DNA from: Chitinophaga vietnamensis
GTDB lineage: Bacteria > Bacteroidota > Bacteroidia > Chitinophagales > Chitinophagaceae
Assembly: GCF_902167635.1 (NCBI RefSeq)
Contig: NZ_CABHMS010000004.1
Coordinates: 248,001-312,000, forward strand
DNA: 64,000 nucleotides
Direction of reading: 5' to 3'
Shown: positions 384 to 27,727 of the stretch, in pieces
How the letters are laid out: each line of letters begins with the position of its first letter
How positions within the stretch are numbered: the first letter of the stretch is position 1
Translations under genes and position numbers: made by a program
The notes under the pieces: model-generated
The model's input: only the letters and a program-made list of their open reading frames with translations
Told to the model about the DNA's origin: nothing
The model's database searches: none

Positions 384-992
384 ATGGAGAAAAACCGCCT
401 AGAAGCATTTTCCGACGGCATCTTTGCGATCGTTATCACCTTGCTCATCCTCGAAGTAAAAATACCGGAGGTAAGCGACGACGCCCTCTGGCCGGCGCTC
501 CAAGCGCTCGCACCCCGACTGGCCAGTTTCCTGCTCAGCTTCGTGATCATCGGCAGTTACTGGGTGGCGCATCACAGCCTGCTCGTATACGTAGAACGTA
601 CCGACCGAAACCTGCTATGGTTAAATATTCTGGTATTGCTCACCGTTGTATTCCTGCCGTTTCCGGCAGCATTACTCGGCCAGCATCCCGGCAAACTGGC
701 CACCATTGTCATATACAGCGTGTCGCTCAGCCTGGTGAATACCACCGATACCCTCCTGTGGCGCTATGCCACGAAGCACCCGAAGCTCCTCAAAAGGAAG
801 CTGTCGACCCGTTTCATACGCAACATCACCCTGATTCACATGAGTCCTGTTATCGTATATGCGTTAGCGATAGCCGCTTTCTTTATCAGCCCGGTCATTT
901 CTTATTTGCTTTACGCGGCTGTGCCGCTATTTTTCATGGTGCCCAACCCGGTGATGAAGCGGATTTTATCTGGCTCAGGATTTAATGATTGA
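384..992 (+). CDS. TMEM175-type (DUF1211) potassium channel family protein
   Basis: This 202-residue integral membrane protein opens with MEKNRLEAFSDGIFAIVIT, which contains the RxxxFSDG signature of the TMEM175/DUF1211 family. Bacterial members form tetrameric, potassium-conducting cation channels with six helices per subunit. Hydrophobic segments can be picked out near residues 10-28, 40-65, 80-105, 110-130 and 150-190, which fits six helices. The length is usual for bacterial members. The last residues (SGSGFND and stop) are encoded inside the left arm of the long palindrome 973-1191, so the C-terminus appears to have been set by that element. Ion selectivity is inferred from the family only. 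Confidence 0.85.
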   Translation: MEKNRLEAFSDGIFAIVITLLILEVKIPEVSDDALWPALQALAPRLASFLLSFVIIGSYWVAHHSLLVYVERTDRNLLWLNILVLLTVVFLPFPAALLGQHPGKLATIVIYSVSLSLVNTTDTLLWRYATKHPKLLKRKLSTRFIRNITLIHMSPVIVYALAIAAFFISPVISYLLYAAVPLFFMVPNPVMKRILSGSGFND

Positions 993-1191
993 AAGGATTA
1001 CCAGGATTTTTTTACAGGATTAAAAAAGATTAAAAAAAGATTGAGGAGAAGATCAACGAGGTTTCAGCCCTTGAAGCGCTTTGAGCGCTTCAAGGGCTAT
1101 CATCGCGAATATCTTCCCGCCAATTTTTTTTTAATCTTTTTTAATCCTGTAAAAAAATCCTGGTAATCCTTTCAATCATTAAATCCTGAGC
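973..1191. repeat. Long intergenic palindrome, family A copy 1
   Basis: The left arm begins GCTCAGGATTTAATGATTG at 973. The right arm ends with its complement at 1191. Both contain the family core GGATTACCAGGATT or its complement. The centre holds the short hairpin at 1066-1098. The element contains the stop codon of the TMEM175-type gene (990-992) and touches the stop codon of the lanB gene (1191-1193). Related copies lie at 10992-11204, 24708-24889 and 27477-27727. Confidence 0.9.
1066..1098. repeat. Short hairpin, family B copy 1 (nested in family A copy 1)
   Basis: Arms AGCCCTTGAAGCGCT (1066-1080) and AGCGCTTCAAGGGCT (1084-1098) are perfectly complementary around a TTG loop. The flanking core, including a downstream TCGCGAATATCTTCC, is shared with the copy at 27586-27618. 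Confidence 0.9.
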
Positions 1192-4100
1192 TAAACAACC
1201 TTCGCTTTCTTCGCTATTGCCAACTGTGAATCGTAATATTTCTGGAGGAAATGATAGATCACCAGTTCGTGTTTGCGTTGGTTGGATACTATCATGCGGT
1301 TCAGGAACATGTGGATGTAGCTGGAGAGGAGGTCATTGCGGAGCAGGAGCTTATTGCCGGAATGTGCGTCTATGGCGGATTGTATCCTTTGGGAGCGGAT
1401 GGTGAAGAGGGCGATGGCCTCTTCGATGCCGTTGGCTTCGTCCTGGGATGGGTCCATGATGCTGGCAATGCGGCGCATTTCTGCGCGGTATTTATCATTG
1501 AGCTGGTTGTGTAAAGGTTTGCCGCCACCAAATTCTTCGAAGAAGTTTTTTTGCAGCAGTTGCAGCAGCTTGCTTTTGGCGGGGAGGTCATAGCCGAAAT
1601 CCCGCAGCAGCATGTCGATGCCGCGTGCGGCAAGGAGCCAGCGGTATTGTTCGCCTTCTTCGCCATCGAGGAGGTCGAGGAAGGAGATGACGCTTTCGCT
1701 GTCGTAGTGGAATACGGACTCGCTGAACAGCATGGTGTCGGCGCCGTAGCGCTCTATCTCTCTTTCGTAAGTATCTGTTTGTATGCGATAGGAGAGGCCC
1801 TGGTCTGCCAGCGGTTGCAGGCAGCTGTAAAGGGCGTCCAGCGTGGCTTTCCAGAAATCTTTGTTGCTGCCGTGGTGGAAGCGGATGCGTATGTGGTTAT
1901 CAGGATCGCCGTAGCGGAGGAAGAACCATTGGTCGATGATGCCGGCTTCCATCAGTTCGGTGGTGAGCGGCCGCAGGGCCTGTTTCAGGATACTTTCCGC
2001 GCTGGTGGTGCCGCAATATATTTTTACGTATAGCCATTCGCTGCCGGGGATGAATTGCCTGCGGGGCATTTGCGCCGGCGGCGTTAGTATGGATGGCGTA
2101 TGAGCGGCGGCGGCAACGCTTTGTTTCAGCGGGATGATGAGTTCGTGCACATGAAGGCCGTCCGGGCCTTCCACCCAGCATTGCCCCTCGCCAAAGGTGA
2201 ACTCTTCCAGGGTGAGCTTTTCCTTTTTGATCAGGTTGGTGGCCAGCAGGTGTATGCAGGAGGCGTTGTCGAGGTCGATGAGCAGTTCATTGTCGCCCTC
2301 GGCAATCACGACATAGCGCGGCAGGTCGAGCTGCTGGCGGATGCGCGTGAAGAGGGCGACGTAATCCGTTGTCTGTTTTTGCAGCAGCTCGGGATAATCT
2401 TTTTTCTGTAGTATCCAGGTGCATTTGCTGAGCAGTATTTTTTTATAGACCACACGTGGCAGGAAGCTGGCTTCTGCGGGCAGCTGCCATTGCCAGATGA
2501 CCGGCCCGCTGAGTCCCTGTGATTGCAGGTCGCAGAGGAAACGGTAGGCGAGCAGCCCATTCCTGAAATTGTGGGCGGTGCTGAGGCGTGGTATAATTAT
2601 TTTGTTGAGCTTCTTTGAACGCAGTACAATTTTATTCTGACGTACGCTCACGAGCAGATCGCTCAGGGGTATCTGGTGTGATGCCGGCGTGCTGCTGTTG
2701 GAGAGGTACACAATTTCGTAGGGGCGTAAGCGTGGTCGCATGAGAATGTTGCCGGTGCGGGCTTCCGGGAGATGCACAATTTCGGCGAAGATGGCATCGG
2801 GATCGCTGGCTTCTTCACTGCGGAGGGCGTCCATCACTTTTTGTGTGAGGGTATCGTCGCCATGGCAGAACCTTCCGAGGAGGTTGGCCGCAGAAGGGCC
2901 GCTACAGCCGTTGAGCGAGAAGAGGTAGTCGCCCGCATCTATGGCGGCGGCACTGTTGGCGAGCAGGCTGCCCATCAGGTAGGTGCTGTAGGGCGGCGTG
3001 GGCGGGTCTTTATGTTTGAGTGCTTCGAGATGTTCATCAGTGAGGATGATCTCTTTGCGGTGCTCTTTTAAGCAACGTTGTAGCTCCTGTAACTGGAATG
3101 CCTGCATTTTGCTGCGCGGCATGCTGTCGGTGGTGGCGTTGCCGGGTGTGATGATATCGTCTACCAAAGGAGTATGGTCGCCACGGCCGCCACTGTGGCT
3201 GGCATAGCCGATACCGGATTCACTGTCCAGCGCAACCGCCAATGGTACTTCCTGTTCTTCAAAGCGTTCGCGGAAACGCTGCATGAAATCCTGCAGGTCA
3301 TTGTTCTGGTTGGGTAAAGATAGTTTCCAGAGCTGATCTACCTGTTGGGTGATATCCTTGATGGCGGCTGAACTGATGGTATTGGTGTGTGTTTGCAGAA
3401 AGAGGTCTGTTTGTATCAGGTCTTTGTTGCTGGTTTCCGGCAGGATGGATTTTACCAGCTGGTGCGCCGTAATATATTTGGCGGTGCCGTGCGCGGGATC
3501 CTGTAATAATTCGTGTATGCGTTGCAGTGAGTGCGTAAAATTTTCACTGCCGGGTATGTTGGCGAGCTGGCGGGAGAAATAACTGAAGAACTCTTCACCG
3601 GTAACGGTGGGTTCCAGTGCGCTCACCAGCAGCTGGCTGTCTACCAGTTCCTGTACAAAGTCGCGCGCTTCTTCAGGCGTGATGTCATCCGCTACGATGC
3701 TTTGGCTCAATGCCTCGAGGGTGGCGCCACTGGCGGCTTTCAGGAGGATGATCTCCAGGTATTCCGTGGCATTGACAGAGGTAAGGTAATAGTGCCGGTA
3801 TTTATCTTTGATCGTATAGGCGGCATATCTCCAGGTGCTGCCCATTTTATACAGGGAGCTGTTGGGATACCAGGTAAGTTGTTCGCGTATCGTTGGCGTG
3901 GCGGTGATGGTGGCGGCGAGTTCCGCTACGTAGTTCATATCCAGGCGGCTGTGTTTTTTATGCAGGTTTCTTTCCTGCAATTGTACCGCAGTATGGCTGC
4001 CGAAGGCGCCGGTGGCGCATCCGGCGAAGAGGCCATAGGGCGTACTTCTGCTGCTCATACGCAAAAGATAACGGAAGAGCGCGGACGTTAATTTATCTTC

Positions 4101-4316
4101 TTCTCTCGGAGAAAAGGGAATGCCTTCCAACCATTTCAGCAATTCCTGGTGCAATTCAGGAGAGGCAATATAAATGGCTTCCTGTAAATAAGGATCGGTG
4201 AGTAACTGCTTTAAAGTGGCTGCCAGCGCGGCATGCGGCAGATTGTTGAACCGGTCGAGAAAATTAAATGGTAAAAGCGGTGTCCTGATTAAATAGAAGT
4301 CTTCGGCTATCGTCAT
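1191..4316 (-). CDS. lanB: Class I lanthipeptide dehydratase (LanB)
   Basis: This 1041-residue protein is a full-length LanB. Such enzymes glutamylate Ser/Thr of a precursor peptide using glutamyl-tRNA and then eliminate glutamate to give dehydroalanine or dehydrobutyrine. The N-terminal part has the motif SSRSTPYGLFAG (residues 88-99) typical of the glutamylation domain. From about residue 752 the elimination (SpaB_C) domain follows, with GDPDNHIRIRF ending near 813 and SSYIHMFLNR at 998-1007. NisB is 993 residues, so nothing is missing. The gene is transcribed divergently from the precursor gene at 4533. Its last residues (AKVV, stop) are encoded by the motif that flanks the family A palindromes (GCGAAGGTTGT), so the palindrome shaped the C-terminus. 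The substrate is inferred to be the adjacent precursor. Confidence 0.93.
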   Translation of the reverse strand: MTIAEDFYLIRTPLLPFNFLDRFNNLPHAALAATLKQLLTDPYLQEAIYIASPELHQELLKWLEGIPFSPREEDKLTSALFRYLLRMSSRSTPYGLFAGCATGAFGSHTAVQLQERNLHKKHSRLDMNYVAELAATITATPTIREQLTWYPNSSLYKMGSTWRYAAYTIKDKYRHYYLTSVNATEYLEIILLKAASGATLEALSQSIVADDITPEEARDFVQELVDSQLLVSALEPTVTGEEFFSYFSRQLANIPGSENFTHSLQRIHELLQDPAHGTAKYITAHQLVKSILPETSNKDLIQTDLFLQTHTNTISSAAIKDITQQVDQLWKLSLPNQNNDLQDFMQRFRERFEEQEVPLAVALDSESGIGYASHSGGRGDHTPLVDDIITPGNATTDSMPRSKMQAFQLQELQRCLKEHRKEIILTDEHLEALKHKDPPTPPYSTYLMGSLLANSAAAIDAGDYLFSLNGCSGPSAANLLGRFCHGDDTLTQKVMDALRSEEASDPDAIFAEIVHLPEARTGNILMRPRLRPYEIVYLSNSSTPASHQIPLSDLLVSVRQNKIVLRSKKLNKIIIPRLSTAHNFRNGLLAYRFLCDLQSQGLSGPVIWQWQLPAEASFLPRVVYKKILLSKCTWILQKKDYPELLQKQTTDYVALFTRIRQQLDLPRYVVIAEGDNELLIDLDNASCIHLLATNLIKKEKLTLEEFTFGEGQCWVEGPDGLHVHELIIPLKQSVAAAAHTPSILTPPAQMPRRQFIPGSEWLYVKIYCGTTSAESILKQALRPLTTELMEAGIIDQWFFLRYGDPDNHIRIRFHHGSNKDFWKATLDALYSCLQPLADQGLSYRIQTDTYEREIERYGADTMLFSESVFHYDSESVISFLDLLDGEEGEQYRWLLAARGIDMLLRDFGYDLPAKSKLLQLLQKNFFEEFGGGKPLHNQLNDKYRAEMRRIASIMDPSQDEANGIEEAIALFTIRSQRIQSAIDAHSGNKLLLRNDLLSSYIHMFLNRMIVSNQRKHELVIYHFLQKYYDSQLAIAKKAKVV

Positions 4317-4361
4317 AACGCTACTATGTTGAATGAAAATGAAGATAAGGGTTTGCTGTTT

Positions 4362-4388
4362 TAAAAAAAATCACGCTTTTACGTGATT
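4362..4388 (-). terminator. Minus-strand intrinsic terminator in the lanB leader
   Basis: On the minus strand, arms AATCACG and CGTGATT (4388-4382 and 4375-4369) enclose a six-base loop and are followed by a run of eight T. It lies 46-72 bases upstream of the lanB start and faces lanB. It would stop a minus-strand transcript that begins further into the lanA-lanB gap, or act as an attenuator. Confidence 0.6.
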
Positions 4389-4532
4389 GGTGGGTCCATG
4401 AAATGTGCCTACATTTATTTCATCAATCCTGTTATCAATGAAAATCCTTTGGTGAAACCTGTATTGTAATCATGTAGCAGGGCCAACACTCACTTGGTCT
4501 TTTATTTTCCACCTATAAAATTTACAATTTTT

Positions 4533-4694
4533 ATGAGAAAAACATCTGAAAAAAAATTATCGCTGGGTAAAGTGAAAATTTCGAAATTGAATGCATCTGT
4601 AATGGAAAGAGGTGATGCGAAAGCGCCTACTTATACCGGCTGCAGCCTGATGGCAAAATGCACGCCTCCTGTTTCTAAAGACAATTGCTTCTAA
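4533..4694 (+). CDS. lanA: Class I lanthipeptide precursor peptide (LanA)
   Basis: This 53-residue peptide starts MRKTSEKKLSLGKVKISKLN. That Lys-rich leader, with its KLSL...ISKLN pattern, is typical of Bacteroidota class I lanthipeptide precursors. The C-terminal part carries Cys37, Cys43 and Cys52, each with a Ser/Thr on its N-terminal side (Thr33 or Thr35, Ser38, Ser48). Three separate, non-overlapping (methyl)lanthionine rings are therefore possible. The leader probably ends near the GDA at residues 27-29; this is inference. The ATG at 4533 was chosen because an in-frame GTG at 4494 would add an unlike extension. LanB is divergent on the left and LanC follows 121 bases downstream. Pinensins from Chitinophaga pinensis are known antifungal class I lanthipeptides from this lineage. 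Whether this peptide is related in activity is unknown. Confidence 0.88.
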   Translation: MRKTSEKKLSLGKVKISKLNASVMERGDAKAPTYTGCSLMAKCTPPVSKDNCF

Positions 4695-4722
4695 TCACCC
4701 ATGATATTGTAGCGAAAAATTT

Positions 4723-4738
4723 AAACCTTAAAAGGTTT
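4723..4738 (+). other. Small hairpin after lanA
   Basis: Arms AAACCT and AGGTTT enclose a four-base loop, 28 bases after the lanA stop codon. It could be a 3' stabilising hairpin for the short lanA message. It has no T run of its own. Confidence 0.4.
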
Positions 4739-4742
4739 ATCT

Positions 4743-4801
4743 ATGGCAAGGCAGGTACTGTTAAGCGTATTAACAGGACATGCTTTGCCATTATTTTATT
4801 T
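4743..4801 (+). terminator. Composite terminator between lanA and lanC
   Basis: An 11-base outer stem (ATGGCAAGGCA at 4743-4753 with TGCTTTGCCAT at 4781-4791, one G-U pair) encloses a second perfect 7-base stem, CTGTTAA (4758-4764) with TTAACAG (4770-4776). T-rich sequence follows, starting at 4792. The position between precursor and cyclase suggests partial termination, so that precursor mRNA exceeds lanC mRNA, as is common in lanthipeptide operons. Confidence 0.7.
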
Positions 4802-4815
4802 CATAAATTCATAAG

Positions 4816-6030
4816 ATGGATTATAAGAAGGATATCGCACTGGCATTGCAGGCCATCAACCGGGAACTGGATGGCATGATACAGCAAGACGTACACCCCG
4901 GCCTGCTGGGCGGCTATTCAGGGATGGCCTTGTTCTACGCCTATTATTATCAACATAGCGAGGCCGATGAACACCTGGAAAAAGTACACAGCCTGATAGA
5001 ACGCTGCGTAAACGACTTGTCGGAGATGCCGCTCACCGGCGCGCACAGCGCGGGTATCGCCGGTATTGCCTGGACCCTGCAACACCTGGTACGAATGGGA
5101 TTTATGGAAGAAGATGATATGGTAGATGCTTTTGAAGAGATCGACACTGCTATCGCCGGATTTATGGATACAGAACTGGCGGAAGGCAGGAACGATTTTC
5201 TGCATCAGGGCGTAGGCGTAGCGCTGTATTTCCTGGAACGCCTGCCCAACGAACATGCGGCCAAACAACTGTCGCGCTTTGTGCAATACCTCAAAGCGAG
5301 CGCTGTTGAAACGCCGTATGGCATTGCCTGGAAAGACCAGTTTTCGCGCAGCAGCCAGGAAGACCTGGAGAATGATTATTACAACCTCGGCCTCGCGCAC
5401 GGTATCCCGGCGATCATCGCCATACTGGCACGCATATACGAAAGCGGCATCGAGACTGAAACCACGCGTTACCTCGTGGAAAATAGTGTGCGCTGGGTGC
5501 TCTCTACGCATAATACGGATGTCAGCGGGTATCAATCGCGCTACCCGGTACTGATCAATGCCAACCATCAGGCAGTACATGAAAAGCATAGCCGTTTGGG
5601 CTGGTGCTATGGCGACCTTGGCATCGCTACCAGCTTATGGTATACGGGCGCACGCTTGCAACGGCCCGATTACCAGCAGGCGGCGATGGACGTATTCCAT
5701 CATGTGGTACAATATCGTGATGAAGAAAATGGCAACATCAAAGATGCCTGCCTTTGCCACGGCAGCGCAGGCGTGGCACACATCCTGCACCGGGTGGGCG
5801 CCGCATCTGGCGATGCGCAGGTACAGCAAGGCGCGCTGAAATGGTTGCAAACCACTTTGCAATTCAATCACCATCCCGAAGGGCCTGCAGGATACCGCTA
5901 TTTTCAACACCCTGATTATATAGACAGTTACAACCTGCTGGAAGGGATCACGGGCATAGGCCTCGCGCTGCTGGCCTTTCTCGATACCAACAACAGCCCC
6001 GACTGGGATGCCAGTTTGCTGATGTCGTAA
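4816..6030 (+). CDS. lanC: Lanthipeptide cyclase (LanC)
   Basis: This 404-residue LanC-like enzyme catalyses Michael addition of Cys thiols to dehydrated residues to form the lanthionine rings. The zinc-binding motifs are intact: WCYGD with Cys264 and CHG with Cys314 and His315. His195 in LGLAHG matches the conserved catalytic histidine region. Repeated GxxG helical-hairpin motifs (for example HSAGIAGIAW near 77-86 and LLEGITGIGLALL near 374-386) fit the alpha/alpha toroid. NisC is about 414 residues, so the length is normal. It follows lanA on the same strand behind a terminator-like hairpin. The start ATG at 4816 gives the usual N-terminus without extension. Confidence 0.93.
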   Translation: MDYKKDIALALQAINRELDGMIQQDVHPGLLGGYSGMALFYAYYYQHSEADEHLEKVHSLIERCVNDLSEMPLTGAHSAGIAGIAWTLQHLVRMGFMEEDDMVDAFEEIDTAIAGFMDTELAEGRNDFLHQGVGVALYFLERLPNEHAAKQLSRFVQYLKASAVETPYGIAWKDQFSRSSQEDLENDYYNLGLAHGIPAIIAILARIYESGIETETTRYLVENSVRWVLSTHNTDVSGYQSRYPVLINANHQAVHEKHSRLGWCYGDLGIATSLWYTGARLQRPDYQQAAMDVFHHVVQYRDEENGNIKDACLCHGSAGVAHILHRVGAASGDAQVQQGALKWLQTTLQFNHHPEGPAGYRYFQHPDYIDSYNLLEGITGIGLALLAFLDTNNSPDWDASLLMS

Positions 6031-6158
6031 ACTTTTCTTGAATTGTTTTCCTAATTATTTTTTCAGTAAATTAGGTGATTAGTAAATGAAACCCGAAGTG
6101 TGTTGTTCACCCGGAACAGCTATGCCAAAGAAAACACGTTACAGCAAACTGAAAAACC

Positions 6159-6788
6159 ATGATCCGATTATATTTCGTAGATGATCATCCATTAATACTG
6201 GAAGGGCTGCGCTCATTGCTATGCCTGGAAAAGGATATGCAGCTGGATGGTGAAACCAGGACAGGCAAGGCTTGTCTTAATTTTTTATTGCATCATTCCC
6301 CGGATGTGATCCTGTTAGATACACGCCTTCCTGATATTAGCGGCGCAGAGTTATGCACCATCATTAAAAGAAGATATCCACAGGTGATGGTGCTGGGCCT
6401 TAGTTATCACAAAGAATACAACAGCATCGCCGCGATGCTGGAAAGTGGCGCCAGTGGCTGCCTCATGAAGAATGCAGATAAAGCGGAACTGCTCAAAGCC
6501 ATTCACGCCGTATATGAAGGTAAAACCTGGCTCTCGGAAGAAATAGCCGAGTTGCTGAGAAAAGAAGGCGGCAACGGCGGTATGCTGCCACTGCATATTA
6601 CCAAAAGAGAGAAAGAAGTGTTGTCGCTTATCGCCAACGGGCACACGAACCACGAGATTGCAGAGAAACTTTTTATCAGCACTGATACCGTAGATAGCCA
6701 TCGCCGCAACCTGTTAGGAAAACTGAATGCGCGTAACACGGCTATGCTCATCAAGTGCGCGATAGATCACAAGCTGTTAGTTACATGA
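6159..6788 (+). CDS. LuxR/NarL-type response regulator
   Basis: This 209-residue two-domain regulator has an N-terminal receiver with acidic pair Asp8-Asp9, phospho-acceptor Asp54 in ILLDTRLPD and Lys near 104 in CLMKN. Its C-terminal LuxR-type helix-turn-helix includes TKREKEVLSLIANGHTNHEI. No histidine kinase is adjacent, so it is an orphan. It follows lanC by 128 bases on the same strand and may serve the lanthipeptide locus or respond to a distant kinase; the sequence does not decide this. The family B hairpin at 6794-6828 follows its stop codon and separates it from the convergent SWIB gene. Confidence 0.9.
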   Translation: MIRLYFVDDHPLILEGLRSLLCLEKDMQLDGETRTGKACLNFLLHHSPDVILLDTRLPDISGAELCTIIKRRYPQVMVLGLSYHKEYNSIAAMLESGASGCLMKNADKAELLKAIHAVYEGKTWLSEEIAELLRKEGGNGGMLPLHITKREKEVLSLIANGHTNHEIAEKLFISTDTVDSHRRNLLGKLNARNTAMLIKCAIDHKLLVT

Positions 6789-6793
6789 AGTAA

Positions 6794-6828
6794 AAGCCCT
6801 TGAAGCGCTCCTAGCGCTTCAAGGGCTT
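6794..6828. repeat. Short hairpin, family B copy 2, in a convergent gene gap
   Basis: Arms AAGCCCTTGAAGCGCT (6794-6809) and AGCGCTTCAAGGGCTT (6813-6828) are perfectly complementary around CCT. On the minus strand it is followed by TTTTACTT, so it may end transcripts from the convergent SWIB gene as well as from the regulator. Confidence 0.9.
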
Positions 6829-6841
6829 AAAAATTTATGCA

Positions 6842-7156
6842 TCAGCTCACATGTTTGCTCACCACTTTGGCCAGCTCGAACATGGAGATCTGTTTTTTGC
6901 CATCGAAAACCACCTTCAGGGTTTCATCAGCATTGATCATGCGTTTGTTCACCTTGTCCTGCAGGTCGTGTTTCTTGATGTACTCCCATATTTTTTTGAT
7001 GATCTCAGTTCTGGGCTGAGGAGTGGAACCTACCACCTTGGCCAGCTGGGCACTGGGCGTTACAGGGGCTTTGATACCAGTAGCGGCTGAACTGGCAGCA
7101 GCTTTTTTGGGCGCGGCTTTTTTGGTGTCGGTACCTGATGACTTGGTCTTTGCCAT
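6842..7156 (-). CDS. SWIB/MDM2 domain protein
   Basis: This 104-residue basic protein has two parts. Residues 1-32 are rich in Lys, Ala and Ser (for example TKKAAPKKAAASSAA), resembling a histone-H1-like tail. Residues 33-104 are a SWIB domain with PRTEIIKKIWEYIKKHDLQ and a C-terminal VVFDGKKQISMFEL that matches the conserved SWIB ending. In eukaryotes SWIB domains occur in chromatin-remodelling complexes. In bacteria they occur in Chlamydiae and widely in Bacteroidota, where a DNA-associated role is assumed but not established. It stands alone: the NUDIX gene upstream on the same strand ends 68 bases before its start. Confidence 0.9.
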   Translation of the reverse strand: MAKTKSSGTDTKKAAPKKAAASSAATGIKAPVTPSAQLAKVVGSTPQPRTEIIKKIWEYIKKHDLQDKVNKRMINADETLKVVFDGKKQISMFELAKVVSKHVS

Positions 7157-7224
7157 AATACGGAGGTTTTTATTGTTGAGTTTGGAATAATATGCTGCTA
7201 TTTCCCATTTATCATGCCAGCCTT

Positions 7225-7692: not shown

Positions 7693-7698
7693 AGTCTG

Positions 7699-8826: not shown

Positions 8827-8890
8827 GTCAAAAAAATTTTGGTATGGGGCAAAGCTGAATAATAAGTAACTTGATCAGCATTCAAAGCGG

Positions 8891-8919
8891 CATCAAGTTG
8901 ATGCAAGTTGGTGCAAGCT
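8891..8919. promoter_or_regulatory. Palindrome and tandem repeat in divergent gap, possible operator
   Basis: The palindrome GCATCAAGTTGATGC occupies 8891-8905. It overlaps two tandem 10-base units, AAGTTGATGC and AAGTTGGTGC (8896-8915). They sit between the divergent genes starting at 8826 and 8939. The repeat character suggests a regulator binding site; the binding protein is not known. Confidence 0.4.
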
Positions 8920-8938
8920 CATAACCACCTTATGCTGA

Positions 8939-10608: not shown

Positions 10609-10672
10609 TTCACTAAGTTTTTTCTAATAACTTTCTAAAGGTATGCTAACAGCCCTTTCCGAAGTGGCAGCG

Positions 10673-10991: not shown

Positions 10992-11204
10992 CGCGAAGGT
11001 TGTCGGGCTCAGGATTATTTTGATTAAAAGGATTACCAGGATTTTCGAATTTATTGATTTTCGGATTTATTGATTTAATTGGAGCGGAGATGAACAATGT
11101 TGTTATCTCCGCTCCAATTAAATCAATAAATCCGAAAATCAATAAATTCGAAAATCCTGGTAATCCTTTTAATCAAAATAATCCTGAGCCCGACAACCTC
11201 CGCG
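10992..11204. repeat. Long intergenic palindrome, family A copy 2
   Basis: The outer left arm CGCGAAGGTTGTCGGGCTCA begins at 10992. Its complement ends at 11204 with one mismatch. The outer part keeps the GGATTACCAGGATT core, but the inner 55 bases of each arm (AT-rich, then GGAGCGGAGAT) are unrelated to the other copies. Arms meet with almost no loop near 11097-11101. It lies just upstream of the sigma factor gene at 11243. Confidence 0.92.
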
Positions 11205-18199: not shown

Positions 18200-18207
18200 C
18201 ACTGCCG

Positions 18208-20259: not shown

Positions 20260-20268
20260 AAAGGAACT

Positions 20269-21678
20269 ATGCTCAAATGGATCATCGCCGGCCTGCTGCT
20301 GGCACAGCTGCACAGCCGTGCGCAAACACACGATACCATCCCGCTCCTGCACGGTGCGCACCGTAGCGGCAACAGAACCGACGCCGATATGGAACGCTGG
20401 CGCAGCCTGCGTTTCGGGCAGTTCATCCACTGGGGCGTTTATGCCATCGCCGGTGGTGAATGGAATGGTAAAGTATACAACGGCGCCGCCGAATGGATAC
20501 GCTCCTGGAAAGAGATGCCCAACAAGGATTATGATGCCTTGTACAAACAGTTCAACCCCGTGAACTATCAGCCGCAGGAGTGGGCGCAGATGGCAAAGAA
20601 CATGGGCGCAAAGTACATGATCATCACCACCAAGCACCACGACGGCTTTTGCCTCTGGCCCAGTAAGTATACTAGCTACACGGTAGCGGCCACACCTTAT
20701 AAAAAAGATATCATTGGTCCGATGGTAGCTGCTTACAACAAAGCGGGCATCGATGTATACCTGTATTTTTCTATCATCGACTGGCATCATCCGGATTGGC
20801 GTACATCGCTGAAAACGCCCGCCGATAGCGCCGCGTGGGGCCGTTTCAAGATATTTGTGAAGAACCAGCTGAAAGAACTGCTCACCAAATACCCCACCGT
20901 AAAAGGTTGCTGGTTCGATGGCACCTGGGATGAATCCTGGAAGAATGATGGCGCCTTCAGCGATGAACTGGAACAATACCTGCACCAGCTACATCCGGGT
21001 TTTATCATCGGCAGCCGCTTGCGCGCAGATGAAAAAGGCGCGCGCCACTTCGATTCCAACAACCATCTCATGGGCGATTACGAACAAGGCTGGGAACGCA
21101 AGCTGCCTGAGAAAGCCGCCGATGTGCATGGCAATGATTGGGAAGGTGTGATGACCGTGCCGGAAAATCAATGGGGCTACCATCAGCACTGGACGGGGCA
21201 TATTAAAACAGCCAATGAGATCATTGAAATGCTGGCGAGGTCCGTATCGTTGGGCGGTAACTTTGTGCTTAATTTCGGACCGAAGAGCGATGGCACTTTC
21301 AGGCCGGAAGAACAACAGCTGGCGCAAAACATCGGCCGCTGGATGCAAAAAAACGGCGCAGCTATCTATGGCGGCGCTTATGCCGGCTTTGATAAACAGG
21401 ACTGGGGCTACTATATCCGCAAAGCCGGTACAGATACGGTTTTTATGGTAGTGTGCAATATACCGGTATCCGGTAACCTGCGCGTGAAATTGCCCGCACA
21501 GCAAACGATCGTGCATGCGGCCACGATGGATCAACAAGATATTACGCCGGAAGTGATTGGCAGAAATGAATATTTTGTCGCCGTGCCGAAAGTAGCATAT
21601 GATGCGCCTTTGGTGATTGTGTTGAAGGTAGCGCAAGCCGCGGGGCAGGGAAGTGGTTTTGAGAAGGCAAAGACTTAA
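20269..21678 (+). CDS. Alpha-L-fucosidase, glycoside hydrolase family 29
   Basis: This 469-residue protein is a GH29 retaining alpha-L-fucosidase with a probable signal peptide (MLKWIIAGLLLAQLHSRAQT). Family motifs include RFGQFIHWGVYAI near 48-60, TKHHDGFCLW near 121-130 and WFDGTWDESW near 215-224, in which Asp217 is the catalytic nucleophile. The C-terminal part beyond residue 370 looks like the usual beta-sandwich domain. It is the last gene of the PUL 1 operon, nine bases after the GH2 gene. The hairpin at 21701-21735 lies just after its stop codon and may end the transcript. Exact linkage preference is not predictable from motifs. Confidence 0.93.
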   Translation: MLKWIIAGLLLAQLHSRAQTHDTIPLLHGAHRSGNRTDADMERWRSLRFGQFIHWGVYAIAGGEWNGKVYNGAAEWIRSWKEMPNKDYDALYKQFNPVNYQPQEWAQMAKNMGAKYMIITTKHHDGFCLWPSKYTSYTVAATPYKKDIIGPMVAAYNKAGIDVYLYFSIIDWHHPDWRTSLKTPADSAAWGRFKIFVKNQLKELLTKYPTVKGCWFDGTWDESWKNDGAFSDELEQYLHQLHPGFIIGSRLRADEKGARHFDSNNHLMGDYEQGWERKLPEKAADVHGNDWEGVMTVPENQWGYHQHWTGHIKTANEIIEMLARSVSLGGNFVLNFGPKSDGTFRPEEQQLAQNIGRWMQKNGAAIYGGAYAGFDKQDWGYYIRKAGTDTVFMVVCNIPVSGNLRVKLPAQQTIVHAATMDQQDITPEVIGRNEYFVAVPKVAYDAPLVIVLKVAQAAGQGSGFEKAKT

Positions 21679-21700
21679 AGCGTAAGCACTTAAAGCGAAG

Positions 21701-21735
21701 AAGCCCATGAAGCGCTCAAAGCGCTTCATGGGCTT
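21701..21735. repeat. Short hairpin, family B copy 3, in a convergent gene gap
   Basis: Arms AAGCCCATGAAGCGCT (21701-21716) and AGCGCTTCATGGGCTT (21720-21735) are perfectly complementary around CAA. Compared with the other copies, the T of CCCTTGAAG is A here and the partner base in the other arm changed to match. It separates the convergent fucosidase and thioredoxin genes. Confidence 0.9.
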
Positions 21736-21752
21736 CGGGCCTTAATAGCAAA

Positions 21753-22982
21753 TTAATCCCAATATTTTTCTCCTTTCTTCATCTTCTCGATAGTATCAGC
21801 ATATGTTTTCTTCTCATCGCCATTAGCCTGGTTCATAGCTTTTTCTTCCCAGGTGATGGCATCAGCTTTCTTACCGGACTTGAAGAGAAGGTTGGCGTAA
21901 GTATCCATGAAAGCAGGTACAGGCTGATCTTTTAAGGAACGTTTGCTCCATTCCAGCGCCTGTTCCACGCATTTCATATCATTACATTTTTCGAAGATGG
22001 TCCAGGCAAATTCGTTCAGCTCCATAGGGCTGGCTTTGTGGCCGAATTTTTTCATATAGGCGACGATGTTAGCCACGGCGTTGTTGGCATCCTTTACATA
22101 CATGAAGTATTGCACTTTCGATTTCAGGATGGCTTCTTCGGCTACCCTCGGATATTTGGCGGCTACATTTTTTTCGATAGCTTTCCAGTCGGGAGTGGAA
22201 CCATCTTTTTTCATCAGCTGCGGAAATATTTCTTCCTGTGCAACAATGGCTATCAGTTTTTTATCAGCAGCGCCGGGGCCGAGCACTTTATCTACTTTAT
22301 CGGCGTGGTGCAGGTACATGTCGAAACCTTTGTCCTTGCTGGTTTTAGTGAAGCGGTCCATGAATACCAGGTTCTCTTCTGTATACAGGTCTTTTTGTGT
22401 GGCCAGGTATTCATTGGAGAATTTGGCGGCATTATTCTGGTCGTATTTTTCTGACGCCAGCATGGCCAGCTCGCGGATGAAGGCAGGATCTTTCTTGCCT
22501 TTATCATAGGCCGCTAACTGGGTGTAGTACTGGTTTTCAGGGTTCAGTGACGCTTTGGAAGCTGCAATGAAATCGGCTGCTTCGCCGCCACCTACGTGGC
22601 GGTCTACCGCTTCGCCATCAGGAGAAAAATATAGGAAGGTAGGATAAGCGCGCACGCTGTATTTGTCTTCAATCATCTTGGCATCATCATACCATTTCTT
22701 TACATCGTCGTTATCATTCGCGGTACGGTCCATCTGTACCTTTACGCAGATGAATTTCTCATTCATAAAAGTACCTACTTCCTCCTGCGGGAAAATGTTG
22801 GCAGACATATATTTGCAGGGACCGCACCAGGTGGTGAAGCAATCCATGAAAATATATTTGTTTTCGGCTTTCGCTTTGGCTTTGATATCGGCCCAGCTGA
22901 GGTTGTGTTCAAAATGGATACCTTTCTCCTGGGCCACCGCCAGCATAGGCAGCAGCAATGCCAGTAACAGTAATCTTTTCAT
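21753..22982 (-). CDS. Secreted thioredoxin-like protein with helical-repeat C-terminus
   Basis: This 409-residue protein has a signal peptide (MKRLLLLALLLPMLAVAQ) and a thioredoxin fold with active site WCGPC (Cys53, Cys56) in the context DCFTTWCGPCKYMSANIF. A following stretch, FICVKVQMD then YSVRAYPTFLYFSPDGEAV, supports the fold. From about residue 180 onward the sequence is helical and TPR-like, as in the Bacteroidota thioredoxin family with C-terminal helical extensions. It is likely periplasmic and acts on disulfides of unknown partners. It is convergent with the fucosidase and stands alone, with 135 bases to the YdcF gene on the same strand. Confidence 0.9.
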   Translation of the reverse strand: MKRLLLLALLLPMLAVAQEKGIHFEHNLSWADIKAKAKAENKYIFMDCFTTWCGPCKYMSANIFPQEEVGTFMNEKFICVKVQMDRTANDNDDVKKWYDDAKMIEDKYSVRAYPTFLYFSPDGEAVDRHVGGGEAADFIAASKASLNPENQYYTQLAAYDKGKKDPAFIRELAMLASEKYDQNNAAKFSNEYLATQKDLYTEENLVFMDRFTKTSKDKGFDMYLHHADKVDKVLGPGAADKKLIAIVAQEEIFPQLMKKDGSTPDWKAIEKNVAAKYPRVAEEAILKSKVQYFMYVKDANNAVANIVAYMKKFGHKASPMELNEFAWTIFEKCNDMKCVEQALEWSKRSLKDQPVPAFMDTYANLLFKSGKKADAITWEEKAMNQANGDEKKTYADTIEKMKKGEKYWD

Positions 22983-23117
22983 AATGGTGTTGTTGTTTTT
23001 GATTGGGTGATTAATATCTGATAACAGGAAATGCTCTTGTACACGGGTTACATACGGATACTAATTTAAGGAATTATTAGTGCCAGCTGTAAATATTTCT
23101 ACATGACAAGTTGAATG

Positions 23118-23603
23118 TTAAAGGGTAGCGGTAAGGCTATTGATAGCTTGCAGTTCGTGTGCTTCCAGTTTGGCCATTTCTTCCGGTGTAACCGTGGAAG
23201 TGGCCGGCCAGTATAATGTTGCGGGATAGTTAACCCATCGCTTCTGTATGATGCCGGCTCTTTTCATGTGGAAGTCGGAGGTAACAACGATCAGCAGTTC
23301 CGGCGCCAGTTTGAAGATCAGGTCTTTTGCATTTTTAAAATCCTCCATAGTATTGGTGGAATACACGGCCGGCGCAAAGGCCGCTGCGGGAATGCCGCGT
23401 TGTTGCAGGTACTGTTGTGAATAAATGTAATGGGCTTGTTGGGTTTCGTTGAAATGTTTCCCGATGCCGCCGGTGCAGCATACCTGGAAGGAGGGATTGA
23501 ATCGGAATACCTGCCATACCGTATCCAGTCTGTTTTTTGCGATGGTGCTCAGTTGTCCGGCCGCGTCGTTAGGCGCTCCCAGCGATAGAATAAGTCCTTT
23601 CAT
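23118..23603 (-). CDS. YdcF/SanA-type (DUF218) protein
   Basis: This 161-residue protein belongs to the DUF218/YdcF family, recognised by MKGLILSLGAPNDAAG at the start, then CTGGIGKHFNETQQAHYI and STNTMEDFKNAKDLIF, followed by VVTSDFHMKRAGIIQKR. YdcF and SanA proteins in Gram-negatives are tied to envelope processes; the enzymatic activity is not settled for most. Unlike SanA it has no membrane helix here. The ATG at 23603 is preferred over a TTG at 23624, because the family sequence starts at MKGLILSLG. It is transcribed away from the PI-PLC-like gene at 23743, with which it shares the gap. Confidence 0.8.
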   Translation of the reverse strand: MKGLILSLGAPNDAAGQLSTIAKNRLDTVWQVFRFNPSFQVCCTGGIGKHFNETQQAHYIYSQQYLQQRGIPAAAFAPAVYSTNTMEDFKNAKDLIFKLAPELLIVVTSDFHMKRAGIIQKRWVNYPATLYWPATSTVTPEEMAKLEAHELQAINSLTATL

Positions 23604-23742
23604 AGTGAGGTGTATTTTTTCCAAGATACAACTTCATATTATGTAATTGTTAACCTGGAAAGAAGAGTAGTTATCAAGATCGGGAGGAGTGACTTACACT
23701 CGATAAACCCACTTATTTGTTAACGTAAAGAAAACCTTCATT

Positions 23743-24708
23743 ATGAAAGTAGCACACCTGGCCATCGGCCTGATGGCTGTATTATCCGCCACTGTAATGT
23801 CCTGCCGTAAAGACCTGAACGACACTGTCGCCCCTGCCACTGCCAAAGGGCTGACTGCAGGCGTTACAGCGGCTAACTGGTCTAACAACAACTGGATGAC
23901 GGCCATCCCGGATAACACGGTATTGTCTGCGCTCACTATCCCGGGCACGCACGATTCCGGCGCCCGTAACGAGCCATTTCCCGGCACTGCCAAAACCCAG
24001 ACGCTCAGCATCGGCGACCAGCTGAATGCCGGCATCCGTTTTCTTGATGTGAGGTGCCGCCACATCGGTGATGCTTTTGCTATCCACCATGGCTCGATCT
24101 ATCAGAACCTGAACTTCGATGATGTGCTCAATGCCTGCTTCGCCTTCCTGGCCAGCAATCCCGGCGAAACCATCGTGATGAGCGTAAAAGAAGAGTACGA
24201 CCCTACCAACAACACCCGCAGCTTTGAAGCTACCTTCGACAGCTACGTGGCCAAGAACCCTGGCGGCTGGTACCTCGGCGCTACCATCCCGCAGTTGTCA
24301 ACGGTGCGTGGCAAGATCGTATTGTTAAGAAGGTTCAGCTCTTCCAATACCAAAGGCATCGATGCCAGCGCCTGGGCCGACAACACCACTTTCTCCATCA
24401 ACAACAGCAACGCCAACCTGCGCATCCAGGACCAATACCAGGTTCCCGACAACAACGGTAAATGGAACGTCATCACCTCCCTGTTCAATGAAGCCACCAG
24501 CGGCAACAGTGCTACCCTGTATATCAATTTCACGAGCGGTTACAAATCGATGATCTTTGGTATCCCCAGCATCACCACCGTTTCCGATGATATCAATGGC
24601 AGGCTCGATAGCTATTTCAGCACCGCCGCACATGCGCGCTACGGCATCATCCCTATGGATTTTGCTACTGCGGATAGAGCAGGGAAGATGATTACGACGA
24701 ACTTCTAA
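23743..24708 (+). CDS. PI-PLC X-domain lipoprotein (phosphatidylinositol phospholipase C-like)
   Basis: This 321-residue protein has a lipoprotein signal with Cys21 in VMSCRKD and a PI-PLC X-domain fold. The two catalytic histidines are visible: His70 in IPGTHDSG and His115/116 in AIHHGSIYQN. Bacterial PI-PLCs cleave phosphatidylinositol or glycosyl-PI anchors by an acid-base mechanism with such a His pair. Its predicted site is the outer membrane surface or periplasm. The stop codon at 24706-24708 overlaps the first base of the family A palindrome. It stands alone with no sequence clue to its physiological substrate. Confidence 0.88.
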   Translation: MKVAHLAIGLMAVLSATVMSCRKDLNDTVAPATAKGLTAGVTAANWSNNNWMTAIPDNTVLSALTIPGTHDSGARNEPFPGTAKTQTLSIGDQLNAGIRFLDVRCRHIGDAFAIHHGSIYQNLNFDDVLNACFAFLASNPGETIVMSVKEEYDPTNNTRSFEATFDSYVAKNPGGWYLGATIPQLSTVRGKIVLLRRFSSSNTKGIDASAWADNTTFSINNSNANLRIQDQYQVPDNNGKWNVITSLFNEATSGNSATLYINFTSGYKSMIFGIPSITTVSDDINGRLDSYFSTAAHARYGIIPMDFATADRAGKMITTNF

Positions 24709-24889
24709 GCGAAGGTTGTCTTAGCTCAGGATTATACTGATTGAAAGGATTACCAGGATTTTTTACAGGATTAAAAAAGGATTCGCGAAGATCAATTCGA
24801 TATGATCTCCACGAATCCTTTTTTAATCCTGTAAAAAATCCTGGTAATCCTTTCAATCAGTATAATCCTGAGCTAAGACAACCTTCGCT
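24708..24889. repeat. Long intergenic palindrome, family A copy 3
   Basis: Arms start AGCGAAGGTTGTCTTAGCTC at 24708 and end with the complement at 24889. Outer core GGATTACCAGGATT is conserved, while the central part (GGATTCGCGAAGATCA with TGATCTCCACGAATCC, two mismatches) is unlike copies 1, 2 and 4. A T run follows the right arm. It lies between the PI-PLC-like gene and the molybdopterin enzyme. Confidence 0.93.
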
Positions 24890-24910
24890 TTTTTTCCGTA
24901 ACTTTTCTTT

Positions 24911-25603
24911 ATGGAAGAATCAGACAAGCTCCAGCGCATTGTAGAAGCGCGTATGAAGTTGAAGGCAAGATTTGAGCAGCAGATGGCGGCTACGCCTTCG
25001 GTGGCGGATCAGCGGCCGATGGGGAGTGGCAGGCCTAACCGGCATGGGATGCCGGTGTTGCCGGTAGGGCAGGTGGTGACGAAGAAATGGCCGGTGCTGG
25101 ACCTGGGCGTGCATCCAGATATTCCGCTGGCGCAATGGCAGCTGGTGGTAGATGGCGCAGTAGAGCATCCGCTGCAATTGAAATGGGAAGAGTTGATGGC
25201 ATTGCCGCAAACGGATGATACGTCTGATTTTCATTGCGTAACCACCTGGTCTAAACTGGATATCCCTTGGAGCGGTGTGCGCCTGCTGGATATCGCTGCG
25301 CTGGTGATGCCCCTTATAACGGCTACGCATATACTCTGTTACGGTTACGATGACTATACCACCAATCTCTCACTGGAAGAGGCTTTGAAGCCTGATGTAA
25401 TGCTGGTGCATACGGTGGATGGCCAGCCGCTGCCCAAAGAACATGGCGGCCCGCTGCGGATGATCACCCCGCAGCTGTATGCCTGGAAAGGCGCCAAGTG
25501 GATACAGCGCATCGAATTTCTGCAAGAAAATAAATTGGGTTTCTGGGAACAACGTGGCTACTCCAACACGGCCTATCCCTGGCGTAACGACCGCTACTCC
25601 TGA
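24911..25603 (+). CDS. Molybdopterin-dependent oxidoreductase, sulfite-oxidase-fold (YedY/MsrP-like domain)
   Basis: This 230-residue protein has a sulfite-oxidase molybdopterin domain. It shows FHCVTTWSKLDIPWSGVRL, in which Cys109 is the expected thiolate ligand to molybdenum, then DDYTTNLSLEEAL and EHGGPLRMITPQLYAWKGAKW, which bind the cofactor in this family. No Tat signal or membrane segment is present, so it is probably cytoplasmic. The N-terminal 40 residues, rich in basic residues, are not domain-like. Length fits the small standalone members. The ATG at 24911 lies 21 bases after the palindrome. Its 3' end overlaps the convergent gene at 25594 by ten bases. Confidence 0.85.
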   Translation: MEESDKLQRIVEARMKLKARFEQQMAATPSVADQRPMGSGRPNRHGMPVLPVGQVVTKKWPVLDLGVHPDIPLAQWQLVVDGAVEHPLQLKWEELMALPQTDDTSDFHCVTTWSKLDIPWSGVRLLDIAALVMPLITATHILCYGYDDYTTNLSLEEALKPDVMLVHTVDGQPLPKEHGGPLRMITPQLYAWKGAKWIQRIEFLQENKLGFWEQRGYSNTAYPWRNDRYS

Positions 25604-26655
25604 ACATCAATCCGGCTATTCATTGGCGTGAGCGCATGTGTTTTCAGGTTACTAAGACTGAAAGCAATGGCTGCGCCCGGGTTTTCAGCGGTGGCGCCGC
25701 GGAGTTGCTGCAAACTGGCGAACACCTGCTGTAATGCAGGCAGGTCGAGGGTTTGGGCGGTCATGATGCCGCCGGTGCCTTCGTGCTGCGCATAGTAGCG
25801 GATGTTGGTTCTGCCCAGCAATAACATTTCGGCGCCGGTCATGCCTTCATGGCGGGAAGCTTTGCCGGCGATGATGCGCAGTGCGGCGAGATCGAATGGT
25901 GTACTGTATTTGAGCGTGAACACCAGGATGCCCCTGCGGCCGTATTTGATGTCGCTAACATATAGCGGATTGTCTTGTGCGGTGGCTTCCGAAACCGGCG
26001 TGGTAAACAGCTGGCCGTCTTTCGGAATATCCATATATACGCTGTACAGCCTTTGTTCATAGCTCATGTAGAAACCTCCGCCGGTGCTGTCGGTAGCGCC
26101 GGTGGGCACAGGTGATTGATCTGCATAGGCCACCTGGATACGGTCGTAGTAAAGATCTCCGGAGATGCCCCATGAGATGCCATTTGAAGGATAGGTGGCG
26201 TTGCCCTGAAAAAATCTTTTGAGGAATAACTGCGTAGCACTGGCAGATGGCGGGTCCATCAGGGTGCTGGCATTGGTATAGGTGAGGGTAGCGCCTACGC
26301 TGGCGGGCTTGTAAGTGTAGCCTGTGAGGGGAGTGAAAATACCGTCCGTTACAGTGCTGCCTTTGAAGGCGGCGCCGGGGAATATTAATGCGGCATTGTT
26401 GGCGGTGATGGGAAAGGTATTGCTTTCCAGTAAGTACGTATGTCCGTCACCGTTAGGCCATGCGCTGTCTTTGGATACAAAGGAGCCTGGAGGCGTAATG
26501 AGCAGCAGGCGGCTTTTTTTGGTATTGCCGCCGGGTTGTACCGGCCGGAAGGAAGTATCTACCGGGTTGGGATCATGGATGACGGTTGTTTCCTCTTTTT
26601 TACAGGCATTGATAATGGTTGCCGTGAGGGCCAGTACAGTCAGGTATCTTTTCAT
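25594..26655 (-). CDS. Hypothetical lipoprotein
   Basis: This 353-residue protein has a lipoprotein signal, MKRYLTVLALTATIINACKK, with the lipidated Cys at position 18. The rest is rich in Thr, Ser and Tyr and has few charged motifs. It shows no known domain to me. Segments such as VPTGATDSTGGGFYMSYEQR and the C-terminal HALTPMNSRIDVQE are unlike familiar families. The ATG at 26655 is chosen because an upstream start at 26670 only adds five residues in front of the signal peptide. It is convergent with, and overlaps by ten bases, the molybdopterin enzyme gene. Function unknown. Confidence 0.7.
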   Translation of the reverse strand: MKRYLTVLALTATIINACKKEETTVIHDPNPVDTSFRPVQPGGNTKKSRLLLITPPGSFVSKDSAWPNGDGHTYLLESNTFPITANNAALIFPGAAFKGSTVTDGIFTPLTGYTYKPASVGATLTYTNASTLMDPPSASATQLFLKRFFQGNATYPSNGISWGISGDLYYDRIQVAYADQSPVPTGATDSTGGGFYMSYEQRLYSVYMDIPKDGQLFTTPVSEATAQDNPLYVSDIKYGRRGILVFTLKYSTPFDLAALRIIAGKASRHEGMTGAEMLLLGRTNIRYYAQHEGTGGIMTAQTLDLPALQQVFASLQQLRGATAENPGAAIAFSLSNLKTHALTPMNSRIDVQE

Positions 26656-26872
26656 GTGCGGAAAATACAATTGGTCAACGGTGTGAAGGTAAGGCCATTG
26701 CGCGTTTGTGGCAGTTGATTTTTTTAGCTAGATATCTTCAAAAGGACCGTTGTATTTATAAAACCTTTTGTCTATTATTGTCAGTGGAATTATATCAACC
26801 GAAATAGCAGCCAAAACAACGACGACCGATTTTTTCTTTTTTTTGTCCGTACAGCAAAAACGTTTTAGCCAC

Positions 26873-27475
26873 ATGAACGTGGAGGATATCCGTGAATGGC
26901 AGGTGCAGATTGCCGGAGATGATGAGCAGGCTTTTGCGCGCCTGTTCCGTTACTTTTATGAGCGTTTGTTGCACTTCTGTCTGCAATATGTGCCGGCGCG
27001 GGAAGCGGCAGAAGAGATCGTATCGGATGTATTTGTGAAATTATGGAATCGCCGTCATGAGCTGGAAAGTATCCTGAACCTGCAGGTATATCTTTTTGTG
27101 GCGGTGAAAAATCACTCGCTCAACTACCTTGAACAATATTCCCATTTGCGCATTGTGCCGCTGGCAGAATCAGGCGTGGCGGACCTGCGCAACAGCGTTG
27201 ACCTGGAACGCGATCTCGAATGGAAAGAGATGCGTTTTAAAATGGACCAGGCAGTAGCTTCCCTGCCCGCCCAATGCCGGCGCATCTTCCAGCTGATAAA
27301 AGAAGATGGCTTCCGCTACAAAGAGGTAGCGGAGATCCTCAATATCTCACCACGTACCGTTGAAACACAGCTATTCCGCGCCATGCGCCGCCTGAATGAA
27401 GAGCTGTCGCGTTTAGGTAAGGGCAGCAATATCCTGCCGCCTTTGATTGCCTTGGTGATAGCACAGTTGTTTTGA
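26873..27475 (+). CDS. ECF RNA polymerase sigma factor of PUL 2
   Basis: This 200-residue sigma-70 family protein has region 2 (EEIVSDVFVKLWNRRHELE) and region 4 (LPAQCRRIFQLIKEDGFRYK, then EVAEILNISPRTVETQLFRA). The ATG at 26873 fits the usual N-terminus MNVEDIREWQVQIAGDDEQA. A further in-frame start upstream at 26768 would add an unlikely low-complexity segment. It is followed by family A palindrome copy 4 and then the FecR gene at 27798. The 322-base sigma-FecR gap is almost entirely palindrome. Confidence 0.92.
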   Translation: MNVEDIREWQVQIAGDDEQAFARLFRYFYERLLHFCLQYVPAREAAEEIVSDVFVKLWNRRHELESILNLQVYLFVAVKNHSLNYLEQYSHLRIVPLAESGVADLRNSVDLERDLEWKEMRFKMDQAVASLPAQCRRIFQLIKEDGFRYKEVAEILNISPRTVETQLFRAMRRLNEELSRLGKGSNILPPLIALVIAQLF

Positions 27476-27476
27476 G

Positions 27477-27727
27477 AGCGAAGGTTGTCTGGCTCAGGAT
27501 TATTTTGATTAAAATGATTACCAGGATTTTTTTTATAGGATTTATAAAGATTAAAGAAGATTGGCGGGAAGAACAACGAGGTTCCAGCCCTTGAAGCGCT
27601 CAAAGCGTTTCAAGGGCTATCGTCGCGAATATCTTCCTGCCAATCTTCTTTAATCTTTATAAATCCTATAAAAAAAATCCTGGTAATCATTTTAATCAAA
27701 ATAATCCTGAGCCAGACAACCTTCGCT
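27477..27727. repeat. Long intergenic palindrome, family A copy 4
   Basis: Arms begin AGCGAAGGTTGTCTGGCTCA at 27477 and end with the complement at 27727. The left arm has AAAATGATTACC and the right arm the matching GGTAATCATTTT, a compensated change from the other copies. The centre holds family B hairpin 4. It fills the gap between sigma and FecR genes of PUL 2. Confidence 0.93.
27586..27618. repeat. Short hairpin, family B copy 4 (nested in family A copy 4)
   Basis: Arms AGCCCTTGAAGCGCT (27586-27600) and AGCGTTTCAAGGGCT (27604-27618) pair around CAA with one G-U wobble pair. The surrounding core matches that of copy 1 at 1066-1098. Confidence 0.9.

Follow-up and report, generated by a model that had tools for sequence, protein, structure and literature searches.

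Family A palindromes of Chitinophaga vietnamensis: a candidate non-autonomous mobile element with a GxxExxY gene in its full form

Introduction

How can a palindrome change from copy to copy and still pair with itself? The question is raised by a stretch of 64,000 nucleotides of the Chitinophaga vietnamensis genome (assembly GCF_902167635.1, contig NZ_CABHMS010000004.1, positions 248,001 to 312,000; hereafter the window), in which an earlier note described four long palindromes, termed family A, whose arms differ between copies although each copy stays self-complementary. Here we follow family A through the genome and its relatives. On balance, we favour the view that it is a multicopy, non-autonomous palindromic mobile element, the full form of which is about 630 bp long and carries a gene for a GxxExxY nuclease, and that its arms are kept alike by correction within a hairpin.

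Results

Family A in the window and in the genome

An inverted-repeat search confirmed the four palindromes, which are the longest inverted repeats among the matches listed for the window:

957 to 1207: family A copy 1, arms of 124 nt, 85% complementary, type B centre
10992 to 11204: family A copy 2, arms of 100 nt, 99% complementary, type C, with outer arms of family A and inner arms of the GATTTATT word family
24707 to 24890: family A copy 3, arms of 88 nt, 98% complementary, type A centre
27477 to 27727: family A copy 4, arms of 96 nt, 99% complementary, type B centre

The arm variants previously quoted for copies 1 to 4 are present in the sequence together with their mirrored partners. Copy 1 is longer than the extent first given to it (973-1191), and the inner half of copy 2, which had been called unrelated, has the arm type found in further palindromes of this genome (GATTTATT/GATTTTCG words; for example at 893657 and 701693 of contig C1). 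The core of copy 1, AGCCCTTGAAGCGC...GCTTCAAGGGCT, lies at about 1066-1098, and its edges contain the ends of two open reading frames (ORFs), TMEM175-like (384-992, plus strand) and lantibiotic dehydratase (1191-4316, minus strand). The start of copy 3 coincides with the stop codon of a PI-PLC ORF (23743-24708), and copy 4 begins 1-2 bp past that of a sigma-factor ORF (26768-27475).

The arms of family A are arrays of GATT at a spacing of about 9 nt (GATT and about 5 nt), with the outer end GCGAAGGTTGTCTxxCTCAGGATT, and most palindromes of about 180-255 bp would be gene-less copies. The core motif GGATTACCAGGATT occurs at 206 sites with at most one mismatch in the 6.3-Mb genome (places are given for the first 100 of the matches listed), and the same motif read backwards at none. 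Both core motifs are exact in 46 copies (25 + 21, the gap being within the range searched). On contig C1 (1.098 Mb) a profile of the outer arm found 20 arm pairs and 3 single arms, from which about 100 scattered copies are expected genome-wide; 19 of the 20 pairs are intergenic and one encloses a gene, so that family A is a high-copy intergenic palindrome in the sense used for REPIN/RAYT systems. Judged by one protein of 230 aa, the nearest named relatives of the genome are Chitinophaga and related Chitinophagaceae, with about 80% identity among records that may exclude the genome itself. In two congeners the exact core motif has 0 and 1 matches, the lone match not being a family A arm. After removal of duplicates and of elements too near a locus end, 107 arm pairs from overlapping loci gave 62 unique elements, with centre modules A (32 copies), B (21), C (6) and others (3); module C recurs as the arms of other palindromes of this genome.

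A GxxExxY gene between family A arms

The genome has a single match to the GxxExxY family (TIGR04256, E 1.8e-38; PF13366, E 1.8e-37), and this gene sits between two inverted family A arms in an element of 631 bp. In both arms the spacer is ATGATG and the end type CTTGC, and one core position differs between them. As the sole GxxExxY gene lies between family A arms, the palindromes look like gene-less derivatives of this element. The product is probably a small PD-(D/E)XK nuclease, an activity suggested by the name of the superfamily and by its D, ExK and QxxxY residues, which are kept; those invariant in 14 aligned GxxExxY proteins include G21, E26, Y29, D65, E75, K77, Q89 and Y93. We take the kept residues to be a likeness to RecB/Cas4-type nucleases. 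A sequence search of solved structures with the protein returned an unrelated enzyme as its best match (E 1.7). A RibD_C gene is also bracketed by family A arms (C1:649666-650484), which share the TTTATGATGG variant; therefore carriage of other genes occurs, and this locus is a possible case of gene capture.

Mirrored variation between arms

The compensated variation described for four copies holds genome-wide. We compared the arms of the 62 elements over alignment columns 14-56 (the core). They are identical in 40 copies, and the mean number of differences is 1.50 between the arms of one copy versus 5.36 between copies. The summed core distance is 93, whereas 10,000 random deals of the right arms among the copies gave 328.5 on average and never less than 286. 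Non-consensus states, gaps included, are mirrored in 165 cases and otherwise in 93, where independence predicts 42 mirrored. The outer 13 columns are less symmetric, with 166 mismatches versus 66 in the core. The spacer 3' of CAGGATT, whose mirroring had also been proposed, is mirrored in 53 of the 62 copies. End types and spacer types occur in many combinations, mirrored in each, which suggests that copies exchange sequence or that mutations arose repeatedly and were then mirrored.

The kinds of change are informative about the cause, for which the earlier note had offered either selection for pairing or a mechanism that rebuilds palindromes. Counting bases only, 101 of 146 mirrored changes are transversions and 45 are transitions (29 distinct changes, 17 and 12 respectively), and changes confined to one arm comprise 31 transitions and 30 transversions. 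Seven mirrored variants are private to a single copy, yet present in both its arms; 25 bases are seen once among the 124 arms. Because the mirrored changes are mostly transversions, which are unable to pass via G-U pairs, they favour rebuilding over selection for RNA pairing. Among rebuilding mechanisms, DNA-level mismatch correction in the paired stem of a hairpin appears to explain the mirroring best, since it would need no G-U intermediates, would yield private changes in both arms and would spare large internal loops.

Rebuilding might also proceed by template switching in replication, as the earlier note had suggested, over long tracts, or by copying one arm into both at the birth of an element. 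The very high identity of the arms agrees with either process, as do changes of a whole end module that are mirrored, such as GCTCGCGTAATT in both arms of element 6. Both processes, however, should have overwritten the asymmetric centre of type B, in which the sides of the CCCTTGAAGCGC hairpin differ alike (AACGAGGTTCC-like versus ATTCGCGACGAT-like) in 17 of 20 readable copies, while the arms outside it are mirrored (three copies have variant sides and one more is not readable). Long switching through the centre is thus the less likely form of rebuilding, and we regard this alternative as unlikely, although it deserves more weight than those considered below.

Position at the 3' ends of genes

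Copies of family A lie at the 3' ends of genes, with their edges at stop codons. An incoming ORF is present at 92 of the 124 ends, and its stop codon falls within -6 to +2 of the edge in 53 of these and within -20 to +36 in 86. On C1, where gene calls came from a simple hexamer model and not a standard gene finder, tandem gaps hold 10 of the 20 family A pairs and convergent gaps 9; divergent gaps hold none, and the remaining pair encloses a gene. All C1 palindromes with at least 30 matched bases are distributed similarly (42 tandem, 32 convergent, 4 divergent and 1 in a gene). Divergent gaps are therefore underused (4 of 79 palindromes versus 126 of 727 gaps), with p = 0.003 for all palindromes and p = 0.057 for family A alone. 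Convergent gaps are filled from stop to stop by palindromes of several families, both residuals being at most 20 bp in 24 of 32 cases and at most 8 bp in 15 of 32.

The edges at stop codons, the avoidance of divergent gaps and the filling of convergent ones from stop to stop would be in keeping with selection for RNA pairing, were the palindromes bidirectional terminators or stabilisers of mRNA 3' ends whose stems are kept by compensatory mutations. Such positions may, however, merely reflect tolerance, and near-perfect arms of 100 bp are unnecessary for a terminator. The predominance of transversions among mirrored changes, the one-arm changes without an excess of transitions and the seven private variants also count against RNA pairing, and Rfam models at gathering thresholds matched nothing in the window or in loci L290 and L091. 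We consider selection for RNA pairing improbable as the cause of the mirroring.

At L290:1208-2314 (minus strand), a family A arm contributes the first part of the coding sequence of an adjacent CBM9-like protein, with a signal-peptide-like segment, KILLILSIIIILSKTTFAQ. The idea that arms supply signal peptides was rejected: of 13 candidate outgoing ORFs, one was a clear case.

Word-array arms around GxxExxY and IVP genes in other genomes

The layout of a GxxExxY gene between inverted arms recurs in other genera. Arms, taken as inverted arrays of degenerate 8-10-nt words, exceed the 99% shuffle level (score 14.66) at 22 of 27 GxxExxY loci of Chitinophagaceae versus 3 of 54 neighbour controls (30 loci fetched, 3 too short), and at 21 of 24 loci of the four-helix-bundle 23S intervening-sequence protein (IVP) versus 1 of 48 controls (30 fetched, 6 too short). 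Flanks swapped between loci also pass (83 of 702 for GxxExxY, 100 of 552 for IVP), likely because of shared words. Related sequences stand on both sides of the GxxExxY gene on plasmids of Persicobacter (score 15) and Bernardetia (score 20). The single relative on a viral contig has no such arms (score 10).

The arm words differ between subgroups of the protein. Among 71 GxxExxY loci (30 best-scoring, 40 chosen from the matches listed and the gene of this genome), 59 were usable. In loci with arms (arm score at least 15), at least two GATT per arm were counted in 8 of 10 GNGFQE, 0 of 24 GPGLLE and 2 of 6 GYGFLE genes (p = 2.5e-6 for GNGFQE versus GPGLLE by this strict count). Counting loci without arms as non-GATT gives 8 of 15 versus 0 of 32 (p = 2e-5), and a looser count, which also admits GATG and takes the largest of small counts, gives 10 of 10 versus 2 of 24. 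In these sequences, protein subgroup and arm word are linked.

Within the same bacterial family, GxxExxY matches were found in 67 of 98 genomes (a set to which the congener G106 does not belong) and four-helix-bundle/IVP matches in 112 of 147. At least seven GATT-array matches occur in 17 of the 67 genomes having GxxExxY and in 0 of the 31 lacking a match (p = 0.001, n = 98). In a genome of a second genus (G021), the arm start of the GNGFQE element occurs 44 times with at most one mismatch (3 exact) versus 2 for the control, and the 30 of these 44 places that were fetched include gene-less palindromes (L356, L378 and L383).

IVP genes (PF05635; L091 at G000:C4:66332-66631, and L153-L182) stand within inverted arrays of 7-9-nt words. 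Because IVP loci have such arms, an IVP partner for family A was considered first; it was demoted behind GxxExxY once the latter was found inside family A arms, the sole IVP match of this genome lying outside them. GxxExxY could nevertheless be passive cargo, with an IVP protein or a host factor moving all word-array palindromes. The same kind of arms at IVP loci would fit, as would the other word arrays that flank the single IVP match here and the greater number of GATT matches in IVP-bearing genomes. In the loci seen, however, IVP arms use AAGT, AGGCA and GACAG, unlike the words of GxxExxY arms, and two genomes that lack any IVP match hold 93 (G077) and 22 (G090) GATT matches, each genome having a single GxxExxY match, which is weak in G077 (E 2.8e-11). 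A mover of this kind is accordingly a doubtful proposition, and one that we hold to be quite improbable.

Tests of mobility

Target-site duplications are absent: among the 36 copies whose two ends are both intact, flank identity at the edges is 23-31% over 2-9 bp, and at shifted offsets it is 5-47%, the top value being that for 2 bp within the element ends. The flanks of all 62 copies led to no paralogous empty site within the examined part of the genome. The gene-bearing family A copies found carry GxxExxY or RibD_C, no exhaustive search for transposases having been made. The earlier note had advised looking for an associated transposase or RAYT-like gene. An associated gene does exist, but it is the GxxExxY gene, which had not been foreseen; RAYT was rejected as the mobiliser, since the single PF01797 (Y1_Tnp) match is flanked by GCCCC...GGGGC repeats of its own, not by family A. 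The RAYT-like gene (L092, G000:C4:222211-222555) lies inside long arrays of these repeats. An ordinary miniature inverted-repeat transposable element (MITE) or REPIN, moved in trans by a RAYT (Y1) or DDE transposase, would suit the copy number and defined ends and, by a single-strand type of movement, the absence of target duplication, but it is very unlikely given the location of the only Y1_Tnp match and the lack of the duplication expected of DDE enzymes.

Other palindromes

Three further palindromes were recorded in the window:

38228 to 38287: small hairpin of the GATT type
49801 to 49893: CCCTTGAAGCGC core standing alone
53837 to 53958: palindrome of CAGCAAAG words

The 1.1 Mb of contig C1 (L093-L147) hold 94 palindromes with at least 25 matched arm bases; the arms of many consist of periodically repeated words (GATTTACG, AATTACG, TTATTTGG and CAGCAAAG). 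In 400 kb of the congener G106 there is none. One family A copy is nested in the loop of a palindrome of the CGCAAAG type (C1:966558-966754), whose outer arms have a similar counterpart at C1:951053-951172 that lacks the family A copy. In Chitinophaga polysaccharea there is a related palindrome ending in TTGTCTGACTCAGGATTATGATGATT (L206:9235-9450).

Discussion

We propose a series of linked steps for family A. The full element would consist of two inverted family A arms around the GxxExxY gene, and most palindromes would be gene-less copies that have settled at gene 3' ends. The nuclease may act on an extruded hairpin or cruciform, or on the words of the arms, and so cause copies to move; this choice of target is suggested by the superfamily, by the kept D/ExK/QxxxY residues and by the link between protein subgroup and arm word. 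When the arms pair in a hairpin, small mismatches in one arm would be corrected to match the other; each copy would thereby remain self-complementary while copies diverge from one another. Large internal loops would evade correction, which fits the asymmetric centre that is kept. Both the mobility of family A and the role of the nuclease in it are what we infer from this arrangement.

Several observations weigh against the proposal. No transposition event, empty site or difference between strains was seen; the congener G106 is too diverged for such a comparison, with one shared alignment of at least 400 bp (70.5% identity) in the 400 kb sampled. One GxxExxY gene in about 100 copies could be a coincidence or a passenger, as may be the case for RibD_C, and the correction step is deduced from patterns of variation alone. 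In the wider set, 12 of the 71 GxxExxY loci were unusable; arms were undetected at 5 of 15 GNGFQE, 8 of 32 GPGLLE and 2 of 8 GYGFLE genes; detection varied with the flank taken at L276 and L279; and 2 of the 10 GNGFQE arms fail the strict GATT count, one of which (L328) has other words. The flanks of the Treponema and Fusobacteria plasmid genes score 12 and 13, below the 14.66 level. At least seven GATT matches also track IVP (15 of 73 versus 2 of 25 genomes), and IVP and GxxExxY counts correlate (rho 0.66), so that the association of GATT arrays with GxxExxY at genome level is partly confounded.

More tentatively, and with slightly less than even confidence, we suggest that GxxExxY nucleases and, separately, IVP proteins represent a new class of mobile element, in which inverted arrays of degenerate 8-10-nt words are read by each protein subgroup and gene-less palindromes at gene 3' ends correct themselves. 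If this is true, two widespread families of unknown role would acquire a function, and many word-array palindromes in Bacteroidota, perhaps beyond, would be explained. In either case, two small protein families common in this bacterial family share a single testable layout, in which the gene stands between inverted arms of words. Were the palindromes moved by the nuclease, this would be a type of mobile element without a recognised transposase. The palindromes are also a natural record of the homogenisation of DNA hairpin arms, with about 100 copies in this one genome giving measurable rates of mirrored and one-arm change.

In the open-access literature, we found no paper on palindromes or repeats that treats family A by its title or the start of its abstract, subscription papers being mostly outside this search, and the term 'PDDEXK_3' had no match. 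The passage of PMC8934634 that mentions GxxExxY is not about repeats, and the passages retrieved from PMC13155455 and PMC4060949 are not on family A. The literature on four-helix bundles includes a paper on the Coxiella intervening sequence. The novelty of the family A element is therefore provisional.

Among known systems, the bacterial MITEs offer the first comparison. Their gene-less copies share inverted ends with a gene-bearing element, and so do those of family A, which differs in lacking target duplication, in being nearly all palindrome and in that a non-exhaustive search found no transposase with family A ends. Intervening sequences of 23S rRNA with S23/IVP, as described in PMC4990558, are similar in having a small ORF between inverted repeats, a suspected mobility and a patchy distribution. 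They lie, however, inside rRNA genes and code for a four-helix protein, whereas family A lies at gene ends and is associated with GxxExxY; the 20 C1 pairs are between or around called protein genes. Intrinsic terminators, in the passage retrieved from PMC13155455, show a peak of inverted repeats at +50 to +80 bp past stop codons. Family A likewise is an inverted repeat downstream of genes, but its edges are at the stop codon itself, its arms are far longer and it has about 100 near-copies. A further parallel in layout may be drawn with REPIN/RAYT (compare PMC3116915), which resembles family A in its many short, mostly intergenic palindromes beside one single-copy candidate mover gene. In this genome, however, RAYT has its own separate repeats, and family A is distinguished by a gene for a putative PD-(D/E)XK nuclease in place of a Y1 transposase and by arms that are word arrays of about 90-120 bp.

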